Source of the DNA: Mesorhizobium sp. B2-4-3
Lineage (GTDB): Bacteria; Pseudomonadota; Alphaproteobacteria; Rhizobiales; Rhizobiaceae
Assembly (NCBI RefSeq): GCF_006442815.1
Contig: NZ_VFVL01000021.1
Span: 1-64,000, forward strand
DNA: 64,000 nt
Direction: 5' to 3'
The position numbers and the translations under genes are program-made. The notes under the pieces are model-generated. The model ran no database searches, was not told the origin of the DNA, and was given only the letters and a program-made list of their open reading frames with translations. Below, piece by piece: positions 9,892 to 31,060 of the stretch. Within the stretch, counting starts at the first letter, position 1, and each line of letters opens with the position of its first letter.

Positions 9892-11082
9892 TCAGTCCTG
9901 GTTCGCCTTGACCTTGACGCCAAGCGTCTTCGGCAGGTCGAGCGGGTTGGACATGGCGCCGGCCATGATCAGCGCGAACGGCACCGACGACGGCGGCTCG
10001 GCCGAGATTTCCAGGCTCTTCGGGTCGTCGAGGAAGGTGTTGACGGCGGCCGACACCTCGGCCGTCAGCTCGGGATTGTTGAGCTGCGCCATGCCGAACG
10101 GCACGATCGCCTTGGCCTGGTTGGCGATGTCCTTACCTGACATGCCCTGCTGTTTGCCGACATAGTCGAGCACCTTGCCGGTCAATGAATCGTCCTCGAA
10201 GCGCACCGAGGCGCCGTTGAAGGAAAGCTGCTGCATCAGGCCGAGCATAGCCATGCCCTGCGCCGATTTGTCGGCACCTTCCGGCTGCGAGGCGAGCTGC
10301 TTCTGCATGGCCTGCATCGACTTGATGAAGTCGACCGTGTAGCCGCCGAGGTTGAAGGTCATGCCGAGCGTGCCGGCATTCTCGACCGAGACGTCATATT
10401 TCGACAGCTCCATCTTGCCGTCGCTCGGCTGCCAGGTGCCGGCCATCGCAATGTTGCCCGAGATGTTCTGGTAACCCAGCGCCTCGATGGCTTCCTTCGA
10501 CTTCGGATCGTCGACCAGCGACAGGTCGGCGGTGAATTTTTCGGTATTGGCGGTGAAGTCCATCGCCTTGCCGTCGGCCGGCGGGGTGATCTGGACCGCA
10601 AGCCCGTCCATCGCGAACGCCGTCTTGTCGCCGACCTTGACCGTCATGTTGGAGAGCTCGGCCGACTTGTACATCATCAGCGAGCCGAGCGGATCGGTGC
10701 CGCCTTCGGCCGGGACCTTCATGTCGTGGATGACCACCGGGCTGAGGTTGAGCGTCACGCCATCCTTGCTGTGCTCGAAAGGCGAGGTCGAGAGGGTGGC
10801 GATCTCATAGCCGCCATTGGCTTCGCTGACCCCTTCCAGCTTCACGTCGCCGATCGGCAGCGCTTCCTTCTCGGCCGCCGGCTTGATGGAAACGCCCTGC
10901 AGCACGGCGTTCGAATCGTCGCCGGAGACGCCTGTCCAGGAAATCTCGACGCCCTGGGCGGCAAGGGTTGCCTTGATACGCTCGGCCACCGCCGGATCGG
11001 CGGCGAAGGCCGAATTGAGCGGCAGCGTCAGCAGAAAGGTCGAAAAGGCCAATTTCTTGAGCGTTGAGCGTTGGATTGTCAT
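9892..11082 (-). CDS. Exported protein of unknown function
   Basis: A 396-aa protein with a clear Sec signal peptide (MTIQRSTLKKLAFSTFLLTLPLNSAFA, cleavage after AFA at about residue 27). The mature part is acidic and rich in beta-type repeats, with no membrane helix, so it is probably periplasmic. I do not recognise the family. It resembles rhizobial proteins annotated only as hypothetical exported proteins. An AGGGAA ribosome site stands before the ATG. It is the only gene on its strand here and is separated from parC by a 414-base divergent gap. Confidence 0.8.
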   Translation of the reverse strand: MTIQRSTLKKLAFSTFLLTLPLNSAFAADPAVAERIKATLAAQGVEISWTGVSGDDSNAVLQGVSIKPAAEKEALPIGDVKLEGVSEANGGYEIATLSTSPFEHSKDGVTLNLSPVVIHDMKVPAEGGTDPLGSLMMYKSAELSNMTVKVGDKTAFAMDGLAVQITPPADGKAMDFTANTEKFTADLSLVDDPKSKEAIEALGYQNISGNIAMAGTWQPSDGKMELSKYDVSVENAGTLGMTFNLGGYTVDFIKSMQAMQKQLASQPEGADKSAQGMAMLGLMQQLSFNGASVRFEDDSLTGKVLDYVGKQQGMSGKDIANQAKAIVPFGMAQLNNPELTAEVSAAVNTFLDDPKSLEISAEPPSSVPFALIMAGAMSNPLDLPKTLGVKVKANQD

Positions 11083-29066: not shown

Positions 29067-30146
29067 TCAGGCTTTCGGTGCCGGACCGGTCGAGCCTCTG
29101 ACGACGAACTCGACGCCCATCGTCTCGCGCCGCACCGCGCCGTCATGGTCGAGGATCATGCGCGCGGCGCGGCGGCCGATCTCGATGATCGGCTGGGCGA
29201 TCGTCGTCAGCGGCGGCGTGGCCAGCGCGCCGTCCGGCACGCCGTCAAAGCCGACGATGGAGACATCGCCGGGAACATTGAGGCCGCGTGCCCTCAGCCA
29301 GTCGATGGCGATCAGGGCCATGCGGTCCGACATCGCCAGGATGGCGGTCGGCGGCTCCCCCTTGGCAAAGATCGCCTCGAGGCCGGCCCTGGTGCTTTTT
29401 TCTTCGTTCTCGGTCTCATAGACCGGGATTTTCGCCGTATCGATGCCGAAGCGGGAAAGCTCCTCGAAATAGCCGGCAAGGCGATCGCGCGTTCCGGTGT
29501 AGACCGCGCTGCGCACCGCTTCGGGCGTGGCGAAACCGGTGCGATTGTCGGCAAAGCCGAGCGACAGGACTGCGAAACGGCGATGGCCAAGCTCGGCGAG
29601 ATGGCGTGCGGCGAGCCTTGCGCCGGCGACATTGTCGACGCCGATGGCCGACACGGTCTCGTCCTGGAAGCCGAGCTCCAGCGCCACGAAGGGCAATCTT
29701 CGCTCGCGCGTCAGATCGACAAGGCGCGAGCCGCCTTCGATGCAGAACAGCACAAAGCCGTCGACAAGCGCGCTCTGGATGTTCCAGGCCAGCTTTTCCT
29801 GGTTGGCGGCCGAAACCAGCGCGATGCCCGCGCCGGTGGCGTCGCAGGCTTCGGAAATGCCGGCCATCATCACGCGGGCGAACGGATCGTCGAAGAAGTA
29901 GGAGAGGGGCTCGGTGGTGGCGACGCCGATGGCGTTGACCTTGCCGGCGCGCAGCAGGCGGCCCTTCGGGTCCGGGCCGGCATAGCCCATCTGCTCCGCG
30001 ACCGCCTTGACCCGTTCCCGCACTTCGGCGCGCACGATCTCGGGACGGCTGAAAACATTCGAGGCCGTGCCATGCGAGACGCCGGCGGCCTTGGCGATGT
30101 CGGCCAGCCTGATCGGTCTTGCCTGGCCTTCGAGGAGTGATGCCAT
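29067..30146 (-). CDS. LacI family transcriptional regulator
   Basis: A 359-aa repressor. The N-terminal helix-turn-helix (residues about 13-35, IRLADIAKAAGVSHGTASNVFSRPE) and hinge MGYAGPDPKGRLLRAGKVN are normal, followed by a periplasmic-binding-protein-like sensor domain with LPFVALELGF and IVGFDGVPDGAL. The recognition stretch differs from the commoner VSxxTVS form by having GTAS. Divergent from it are two tiny genes with three copies of a LacI-type palindrome, which this protein probably binds. The ligand is likely a sugar or related small molecule (family knowledge). Confidence 0.92.
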   Translation of the reverse strand: MASLLEGQARPIRLADIAKAAGVSHGTASNVFSRPEIVRAEVRERVKAVAEQMGYAGPDPKGRLLRAGKVNAIGVATTEPLSYFFDDPFARVMMAGISEACDATGAGIALVSAANQEKLAWNIQSALVDGFVLFCIEGGSRLVDLTRERRLPFVALELGFQDETVSAIGVDNVAGARLAARHLAELGHRRFAVLSLGFADNRTGFATPEAVRSAVYTGTRDRLAGYFEELSRFGIDTAKIPVYETENEEKSTRAGLEAIFAKGEPPTAILAMSDRMALIAIDWLRARGLNVPGDVSIVGFDGVPDGALATPPLTTIAQPIIEIGRRAARMILDHDGAVRRETMGVEFVVRGSTGPAPKA

Positions 30147-30215
30147 GTCGTTCCTCCGAATCCGGTCACGCGAAGAACATGACCGCTGAATTGTCGCCGG
30201 TCATCTAACATTTTT

Positions 30216-30280
30216 ATTGGATCGATTCAAATTCCGCTTGACTCACGGTGGATACGATCTATGATTTGAATCGATCCAAC
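30216..30280 (+). promoter_or_regulatory. Promoter flanked by two LacI-type operators
   Basis: Two copies of a near-perfect palindrome, TTGGATCGATTCAA (30218-30231) and its reverse TTGAATCGATCCAA (30266-30279), surround a promoter with TTGACT (30238-30243) and TATGAT (30260-30265), spacing 16. The operators are about 48 bases apart centre to centre; the second covers the downstream edge of the -10 and the start site. The arrangement predicts tight repression of the small gene at 30324. A lacI promoter on the other strand would be controlled too. Confidence 0.8.
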
Positions 30281-30323
30281 TTTTCTCCGCTTCGTGATGA
30301 AGCGGGTTTCAGAGGAGGGTGCC

Positions 30324-30467
30324 ATGCATCCGGTGAGCTATCTGTTCGAGGACATCTACCGCAACGACTGGGGCATCGCCTCGGTCACTGCCAGTCAAAA
30401 ACGCAGTGGCCGTTCGAGCCCTTGGCGGCGCGCGCCGCGCTTCTTCGTGGAGCGTAAGCGCGGCTGA
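30324..30467 (+). CDS. Microprotein, MHP..LF.DI.RN.WGI family, copy A
   Basis: A 47-aa gene starting MHPVSYLFEDIYRNDWGIAS, with a strong AGAGGAGGG ribosome site at the right distance. The first 18 residues match the gene at 30531 (M-H-P-x3-L-F-x-D-I-x-R-N-x-W-G-I). The rest is basic (QKRSGRSSPWRRAPRFF). There is no signal peptide or membrane helix. It sits directly behind a promoter with two LacI-type operators. The conserved amino ends with diverged bases argue for selection on the protein. Function is unknown. Confidence 0.7.
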   Translation: MHPVSYLFEDIYRNDWGIASVTASQKRSGRSSPWRRAPRFFVERKRG

Positions 30468-30493
30468 GCCGCAGCCGTTTTTCGTGCCAGTGT

Positions 30494-30509
30494 ATTGGAT
30501 CGATTCAAT
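30494..30509. promoter_or_regulatory. Third LacI-type operator
   Basis: ATTGGATCGATTCAAT at 30494-30509 is the same palindrome as the two sites at 30216-30280, and lies 21 bases before the ATG of the second microprotein gene. It could repress that gene separately or help form a repression loop with the upstream sites, about 230 bases away. Confidence 0.8.
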
Positions 30510-30530
30510 GCAAGAAAAGGAGGAGTGGTC

Positions 30531-30668
30531 ATGCATCCGATTGGCCATCTGTTTCAGGACATCAACCGCAATTATTGGGGCATCACGCCCGGAACCGAGC
30601 AGCCTGAACGGCGCCGCGTCGGCGAGTTGCCTGCGCCCCAGCGCAAGCGGCGTTTGGGCCAAAGATAG
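30531..30668 (+). CDS. Microprotein, MHP..LF.DI.RN.WGI family, copy B
   Basis: A 45-aa gene starting MHPIGHLFQDINRNYWGIT, behind AAAAGGAGGAG. It shares 12 of its first 18 residues with the gene at 30324, and their ribosome-site regions are similar too, so the pair arose by tandem duplication. The tail (PAPQRKRRLGQR) is basic but otherwise diverged. A LacI-type operator lies just upstream. It ends 18 bases from the convergent DUF423 gene. I know of no named family with this motif. Confidence 0.7.
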   Translation: MHPIGHLFQDINRNYWGITPGTEQPERRRVGELPAPQRKRRLGQR

Positions 30669-30685
30669 GTCGGGCCAAAGACAAG

Positions 30686-31060
30686 TCAGGGTCGCGGGCG
30701 CCACAGCGCCGAGACGGCGATCGCCACCCAGCCGGCGATCAGAAGCGTGCCGCCGATGGGCGCCGACATCGGGAACAGCCGCGAGCCGAGAAAGTCGCGG
30801 GCGAGCAGATCGCCGCAGAACAGAAGCAGGCCCGCGAGCAGGACGAGGCTGGCGACCCTGAGGCAGCGGTTGCCGCCGGCAAGGCCGACGGCAAGGAACA
30901 CCGGCGCATGCATCAGCAGGAAATTGGCTGCTGTGCCGGTGAAAGCGCCGCCGCGATGCGCGGCCGCCGCCGACAGCGCCACGCCTGCCGCGCCGGCGAG
31001 GCCGGCTGCCAGCACGAGGACGCGGCTCCCGCCGCCTGATGCTTGGCCCGTAAGGCTCAT
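30686..31060 (-). CDS. DUF423 (YgdD-like) small membrane protein
   Basis: A 124-aa protein with four membrane helices and the DUF423 pattern: a Gly/Ala-rich first helix, an HRGGA-type loop after it, NFLLMHAPVFLAVG, FCGDLLARDFLGSRLFPMSAPIGGTLLIAGW in the second half. The family is widespread and its function is unknown. The ATG at 31060 has GGAGC upstream; the frame stays open further back but without similarity. It is convergent with the microprotein gene and follows the MFS gene on the same strand. Confidence 0.85.
   Translation of the reverse strand: MSLTGQASGGGSRVLVLAAGLAGAAGVALSAAAAHRGGAFTGTAANFLLMHAPVFLAVGLAGGNRCLRVASLVLLAGLLLFCGDLLARDFLGSRLFPMSAPIGGTLLIAGWVAIAVSALWRPRP

Follow-up and report, generated by a model that had tools for sequence, protein, structure and literature searches.

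A predicted LacI-family repressor and its operator-flanked, arginine-rich microprotein genes in Mesorhizobium and other Rhizobiales

Regulators of the LacI type are best known for their control of enzymes and transporters. In the lac operon, a LacI-family repressor is combined with three operators, one at the start, one upstream of the promoter and one inside the transcription unit, and the genes under control are catabolic. Sugar-related control may also involve a short transcript and a small protein, as in the SgrS/SgrT system, in which SgrT acts on PtsG.

Arginine-rich small proteins carrying the DUF1127 domain are known from several bacteria. In Agrobacterium their binding partner is the sensor kinase PhoR, and the DUF1127 protein CcaF1 binds RNA (PMC12501420). 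In Brucella, the LysR regulator VtlR controls three DUF1127 small proteins, with a link to L-fucose use in B. abortus (PMC12595884). VtlR/LsrB is a LysR activator that also controls the small RNA AbcR2, and more than 250 genes change in the corresponding A. tumefaciens mutant (PMC12595884, PMC7486931).

Here we describe a locus of Mesorhizobium sp. B2-4-3, lying within a stretch of 64,000 nucleotides that was analyzed as a whole (the window), in which the gene of a predicted LacI-family repressor diverges from two microprotein genes (Table 1). An initial annotation had called here two genes of 47 and 45 codons with a shared start and ribosome sites, three identical palindromes (two bracketing a promoter, the third preceding the second gene) and a divergent LacI gene. 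The two genes, their common start (M-H-P-x3-L-F-x-D-I-x-R-N-x-W-G-I) and their GGAGG-type ribosome sites were confirmed in the sequence, and the three palindromes proved to be exact. The proposed promoter was also found, as the sole promoter-like match in window positions 30000-30900, where shuffled sequences average 0.1. The regulator carries the Pfam domains LacI (PF00356, E=5.7e-11) and Peripla_BP_3 (PF13377, E=3.4e-31), both above cut-off, which bears out the call of a LacI gene, and solved LacI-family relatives are 3h5t and 5ysz. Each microprotein combines an N-terminal stretch that is conserved, HPxxxLFxDIxRNxWGI, with a basic tail that varies; the structure predicted with AlphaFold has low confidence (pLDDT 59.5). 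Because the next genes downstream of gene 2, encoding DUF423 and major facilitator superfamily (MFS) proteins, lie on the opposite strand, the unit seems to yield only the two microproteins. O2 directly follows the -10 hexamer, so that bound LacI would cover the likely transcription start. A terminator-like hairpin with a T run spans the stop codon of gene 1 (window 30460-30478), and its perfect-stem form was found in only 2 of 61 related loci.

Table 1. Positions of the predicted LacI-microprotein locus within the window
Feature	Position	Strand	Description
Microprotein gene 1	30324-30467	+	47 codons (47 aa)
Microprotein gene 2	30531-30668	+	45 codons (45 aa)
LacI-family repressor gene	29067-30146	-	Predicted regulator of 359 aa, diverging from genes 1 and 2
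Operator O1	30217-30230	+	Exact TTGGATCGATTCAA; upstream of the -35 box
Promoter TTGACT-16-TATGAT	30238-30265	+	Serves the microprotein unit (predicted)
Operator O2	30266-30279	-	Exact TTGGATCGATTCAA; starts immediately after the -10 box
Operator O3	30495-30508	+	Exact TTGGATCGATTCAA; inside the unit, 22 nt 5' of gene 2
Ribosome site of gene 1	30312-30319	+	Sequence GAGGAGGG
Ribosome site of gene 2	30515-30525	+	Sequence AAAAGGAGGAG

The arrangement resembles that of lac in that three operators occupy the same placements and the regulator is of the LacI family; it differs in that microproteins take the place of catabolic genes, and the two promoter operators of the window lie about 49 bp apart. 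With SgrS/SgrT it would share a short transcript, a small protein and sugar-related control, but the regulator is another one and nothing at the locus points to a conserved RNA that base-pairs. The resemblance to VtlR/LsrB is that of a conserved alphaproteobacterial regulator with small DUF1127 proteins among its main targets, at least in Brucella; there, however, the regulator is a LysR activator, whereas here it is a predicted LacI repressor, and tandem operator-gene modules are not mentioned in the accessible parts of the two reports (PMC12595884, PMC7486931). Like the DUF1127 proteins (the A. tumefaciens SDPs, YjiS and CcaF1; PMC12501420), the window proteins are small, arginine-rich and basic. 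A text search of the literature for three operator strings and two motif strings found none of them, and no publication joining the LacI family, short open reading frames (sORFs) and Rhizobiales was found. LacI and DUF1127 were mentioned together only in what is, by its title, a CRISPR study, and searches for Mesorhizobium, judged by titles and abstracts, brought up no relevant paper.

A profile search of named genomes returned 77 loci with microproteins (a set that may omit near-identical genomes), 73 of them in records named Mesorhizobium. The homologues with the same start motif and operator that the initial annotation had looked to thus exist elsewhere: in 76 of the 77 loci, an operator carrying no more than one mismatch has its end in the 96 nt 5' of the first open reading frame (ORF), the exception being L102 (L and G numbers are our labels for loci and genomes). 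The same holds 5' of gene 2 in all 64 copies examined, at a median distance of 21 nt, and in 72 of 76 loci 47 to 50 bp separate the first and second exact sites upstream. The LacI gene lies next to the microprotein genes and diverges from them in 76 of the 77 loci. At L102, the 1.3 kb upstream (L102:1-1290) contain no LacI gene, operators or gene 1; an IS110-type transposase gene lies directly upstream of a gene-2-type microprotein, and homology to a sister locus starts just before gene 2. Where OpgC, DUF423 and MFS genes are absent within at most 12 kb (L104, L107, L110 and L112), LacI is retained. In the window together with loci L037-L099, the mean frequency of the major base is 0.98 at O1, 1.00 at O2 and 0.99 at O3, against 0.91 at the coding starts and 0.51 to 0.54 in the leaders, and no other DNA of the region is as conserved as the three operators. 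In the promoter, the -35 box stands at 0.90 and the -10 box lower, at 0.68. The conserved palindromes at the linked promoter, our candidate LacI operators, have a CG center.

The same palindromes are scarce elsewhere. In the 6.2-Mb assembly that contains the window (G000), the exact palindrome occurs at O1 to O3 only, with three one-mismatch sites in other places. A degenerate form is present in 38 of 41 Mesorhizobium-group genomes, with none in the smaller genomes G204, G210 and G219, and among the 25 genomes of this group that were listed in full, 24 have one operator-spaced cluster and G215 has one extra site; this count is one of palindromes. Exact sites occur in 19 of 20 LacI-carrying genomes of 14 genera, and in 16 of the 19 they lie only beside LacI, these genomes having been chosen for carrying the LacI and degenerate sites escaping such genome-wide scans. 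Among the other three, the additional site lies 5' of a ThuA-like gene in G455 and G363 and next to a second LacI gene in G062. In the genomes checked, the exact palindromes are near-exclusive to the locus of this putative repressor and its microproteins. The second LacI-like gene of G062 (L181:1501, G062:C14) has palindromes of its own, besides the main switch.

The microproteins themselves bear the marks of selection. Synonymous and amino-acid change are unequal, so that the equal rates which would have spoken against the proposal of the initial annotation were not observed: over codons 1-18, dN/dS is 0.08 for gene 1 (62 loci, taken by position, with L096 dropped) and 0.09 for gene 2 (61 loci, taken by motif, with L068 and L093 missing), and pN/pS between gene 1 and gene 2 within a genome is 0.23, pN being somewhat lowered throughout because all copies were originally found by similarity. 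The tails stand at 0.42 in both genes. When the N-terminal codons are read in the two other frames, pN/pS is 1.15 to 1.54 (for copies picked by motif), and the synonymous difference (pS) in the microprotein genes amounts to 0.44 to 0.51. The N-termini are thus strongly purified while synonymous sites vary freely, which argues that it is the protein that is kept. Ahead of the first ORF, 62 of 77 loci match AGGAGG in 5 or 6 of 6 bases, compared with 7 of 385 random positions, and 50 of 64 copies do so ahead of gene 2.

The two copies have fared differently. Gene 2, as identified by its motif, is intact in 62 of the 63 loci from L037 to L099 and frameshifted in L068; two residues that the motif does not require, G17 and I18, are invariant in the 61 counted copies. 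Gene 1 is altered at one or more of H2, P3, F8, R13 and W16 in 11 of the 63 loci (L096 counted) and is decayed in G073 and G155. Gene 2 is probably the core copy. By the motif used, there is a single microprotein gene at L100, L105, L106, L108, L111, L112 and L113.

The proteins average 47 to 49 aa with a mean net charge above +4, and arginine makes up 17.7% and 19.6% of the two window-family gene sets (the 63 gene-1 rows used for conservation and composition include gene 2 of L093). The initial annotation knew of no family with this motif, and none emerged: 14 members compared with Pfam and NCBIfam gave no family model, the single NCBIfam match having an E value of 0.09, far under the cut-off. 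In Pfam, the two window proteins matched no family at E ≤ 1 and the 14 members none at E ≤ 0.1. Scans with the family profile at order and class level gave six weak matches (E 0.003 to 0.009), and since a capped number of candidates was scored per genome, a lack of matches weighs little; the family- and order-level scans also vary with the genomes sampled, and proteins of 47 residues are hard to detect. Five of the six lie in the arginine-rich tail, none starting before residue 12, and were taken as chance; the sixth, in G804 (residues 6-47, FEQFYRRPWGLP), has no M-x-P start in frame and was also put down to chance, less surely. Plasmids gave no match to the gene 2 protein at E ≤ 0.01 and none to LacI at E ≤ 1e-60.

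Orthologues of the regulator reach farther than the window family does. In a family-level scan, a LacI orthologue was found at E ≤ 1e-80 in 16 of 199 genomes, and all 16 have an operator-flanked tiny ORF in the position beside it (hereafter the slot), some of the sites being degenerate. Eleven slots hold proteins of the window kind (MHP type); those of G175 and G092 are of an MIP/MLP type, those of G102 and G174 are DUF1127-like, and G147 (L145) has a third kind of ORF. At order level, LacI was found at E ≤ 1e-70 in 33 of 297 genomes, and loci were returned for 30, of which 8 belong to the Mesorhizobium group and 16 (L154 and L157-L171) have operator-like sites with a tiny ORF (e.g., MIPASYFFRDLYRRQW, MIPASYLFRSIYRDHF or DUF1127-like); L173 has two sites and another kind of tiny ORF. 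At L172 and L174-L177, where the LacI-like genes are further out, no such operators were seen in the stretch read. In a LacI tree, 30 of 38 rows fall into one clade (support 100/99), and all 30 have the operator-flanked tiny ORF, again with some degenerate sites: 11 are of MHP type, 12 of MIP type, 6 DUF1127-like and 1 of another kind. L170 and L173, with ORFs of other kinds, lie outside this clade. Five of the six DUF1127-like rows cluster weakly (85/63), with L168 apart. Selected paralogous microproteins within a LacI operator unit, with relatives in other Rhizobiales, are in sum what the sequences support, and orthologous LacI repressors of several Rhizobiales families appear to retain the operator-bracketed promoter.

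What occupies the slot differs in kind. The MIP type (MIPASYFF...) is a distant relative of the window microproteins, with M-x-P, an aromatic-F pair and Y-R-x-x-[WF] common to most rows, and we refer to the two types together as MxP. A search with the MIP profile matched 9 of 177 genomes, namely, 5 with LacI-linked MIP genes, 3 with MHP genes and G259; the G259 match (E 0.0013) was taken as chance. The DUF1127-like proteins number six (L146, L147, L164, L167, L168 and L169). Against Pfam DUF1127 (PF06568), L167 scores above gathering (24.3 versus 23.3 bits) and L146, L147, L168 and L169 below it (16.4 to 21.6 bits), and L164, which has no Pfam match at E ≤ 1, was grouped with them by eye and alignment. 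The MHP/MIP family has no Pfam match, and when the MxP and DUF1127-like sets were compared by profile, no similarity emerged between them. The window family is as arginine-rich as the DUF1127-like slot proteins (15.4% in five of them), the MIP type being somewhat less so (13.1% in eight). At the DUF1127-like locus L194 (G432), the neighbors of LacI are hemB, an RDD gene and a gene of the arginyl-tRNA-protein transferase family, and the same neighbors are found at the MHP-type loci L193, L106 and L111, which indicates the same position with a different product. These neighbors are not seen at the DUF1127-like loci L187, L188 and L190 (so that one of the four examined has them), nor at any of seven MIP-type loci (L182-L186, L191 and L192).

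We see about an even chance that the locus is a dedicated ligand-gated switch, in which a LacI repressor governs arginine-rich regulatory microproteins acting like DUF1127 proteins. The regulatory half of this reading, that is, the LacI link and the operators, is well supported as a prediction. LacI would occupy O1, O2 and O3, holding one short transcription unit off, with O2 blocking the promoter start and O1 the upstream side; O3 would probably give looping or a roadblock within the unit, like the auxiliary operators of lac. Once LacI binds its ligand, for which a sugar or a derivative of one is probable, the unit would be transcribed, and its apparent product would be two microproteins of 18 to 20% arginine. 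These may act in trans in the manner of DUF1127 proteins, the conserved stretch serving to dock with a protein and the basic tail aiding protein or RNA binding, and carbon use would be adjusted as the outcome. We infer this mode of action because slot, regulator, size and charge are alike; given that the profiles show no similarity, the likeness is one of analogy and not of sequence.

A wider proposal, which we put forward tentatively, is that of an ancient LacI slot in the Rhizobiales with a constant arginine-rich microprotein output, in which MxP and DUF1127-like proteins have replaced each other in the same job. If this is true, the MxP family would be a second, independently evolved regulator of the DUF1127 type, under direct sugar control. 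The conserved output of this LacI-type regulator would be a protein of some 45 to 90 residues, and the presence of two unrelated small basic proteins in one slot could bear on what arginine-rich small proteins do. The findings suggest a small-protein control layer in the Rhizobiales, and they provide a microprotein family fit for curation together with an operator motif that finds it.

We consider it unlikely that the microproteins instead inhibit or adjust a transporter or enzyme of the pathway of the LacI ligand, as SgrT does with PtsG and in a more explicit form of what the initial annotation had suggested, although the regulator is of sugar type and possible secondary sites lie at ThuA and Gfo/Idh genes. 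The exact site TTGAACCGGTTCAA precedes the ThuA-like gene in G455 and G363. TTGAATCGAACCAA precedes the Gfo/Idh gene in 15 of the 28 Mesorhizobium-group genomes that have the gene; 13 of the 28 are without it, which speaks against this alternative. The ThuA and Gfo/Idh domains of the G000 genes are Pfam confirmed, and no LacI gene was recognized, by eye and from N-termini, in the 20 kb around the site in G000 and G455. That these genes form a second LacI target is possible, and we give it low weight; if the site is real, the ligand would be a disaccharide or keto-sugar. Operator-like sites at ThuA/Gfo-Idh pairs were seen at L306:9790-9803, L178:1501 and L179:1484, which come from Mesorhizobium and from two genomes outside its family, and the Mesorhizobium Gfo/Idh site lies just 5' of the ribosome site of that gene. 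No metabolic gene, moreover, is linked to the locus across genera, where neighbors change and LacI stays.

An MFS gene also came into question as a target. This transporter, which we take to be YbjJ-like, is present in 39 of 41 Mesorhizobium-group genomes; an upstream site with at most one mismatch occurs at all 30 of the returned Mesorhizobium-group loci, and TTGAATCGATCTAA lies upstream in 7 of 9 further regions (not in G204 or G210). We rejected it, since TTAAAYCGATTTAA-type palindromes lie nearby in many genomes without this LacI (E ≤ 1e-80), so that the near-operator is probably the site of another regulator, which also weakens the case for a transporter as the microproteins' partner. The MFS palindrome (L223-L289; gene G000:C17:90930) is of the YTAAAYCGATTTAR type, taking the form TTGAATCGATCTAA in Mesorhizobium. 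Palindromes of this type often stand right behind a TTGAC box at the MFS gene in many Rhizobiaceae, with or without this LacI.

Feedback is another option: the microproteins might target LacI itself, as an anti-repressor or corepressor. LacI is the sole linked gene in 76 of 77 loci, even where other neighbors differ, as such a partnership would have it. Specific binding to LacI fits poorly, however, with an unrelated DUF1127-like protein in the slot of an orthologous LacI, and we regard this as improbable.

To the idea that the transcript is a dual-function small RNA of the SgrS kind, with the peptides secondary, we give a lesser chance still. The unit is short and, in the window, is not directly followed by a gene on its own strand; in the minimum-energy fold predicted for it, O3 is paired with that part of O2 which would be transcribed. 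Nevertheless, the fold has a z-score of only -1.0, synonymous sites are highly divergent, and the leaders are poorly conserved, as are the untranslated parts outside the operators in general, where no SgrS-type base-pairing segment was found; a comparison of the microprotein unit with Rfam likewise gave nothing near a gathering score.

Finally, it is most improbable that the genes are nonfunctional by-products, with only LacI or the operators mattering: 11 of 63 loci do have a decayed or altered gene 1, but both N-termini are under strong purifying selection and ribosome-site matches stand far above those of random positions.

In a few relatives the slot ORF is followed by a gene on the same strand, and the two could be cotranscribed. 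At L106, a DUF2270 gene lies about 100 nt after the ORF, and at L189 (G147) the unusual tiny ORF has a PhoU gene behind it, which is perhaps worth noting given that DUF1127 is elsewhere tied to PhoR. The microprotein frames of L101, L103 and L109 have long C-terminal extensions, to totals of 107, 136 and 137 residues, respectively. At L078, DUF423 starts at 10025 rather than at about 6400, with some 3.6 kb of extra DNA behind gene 2.
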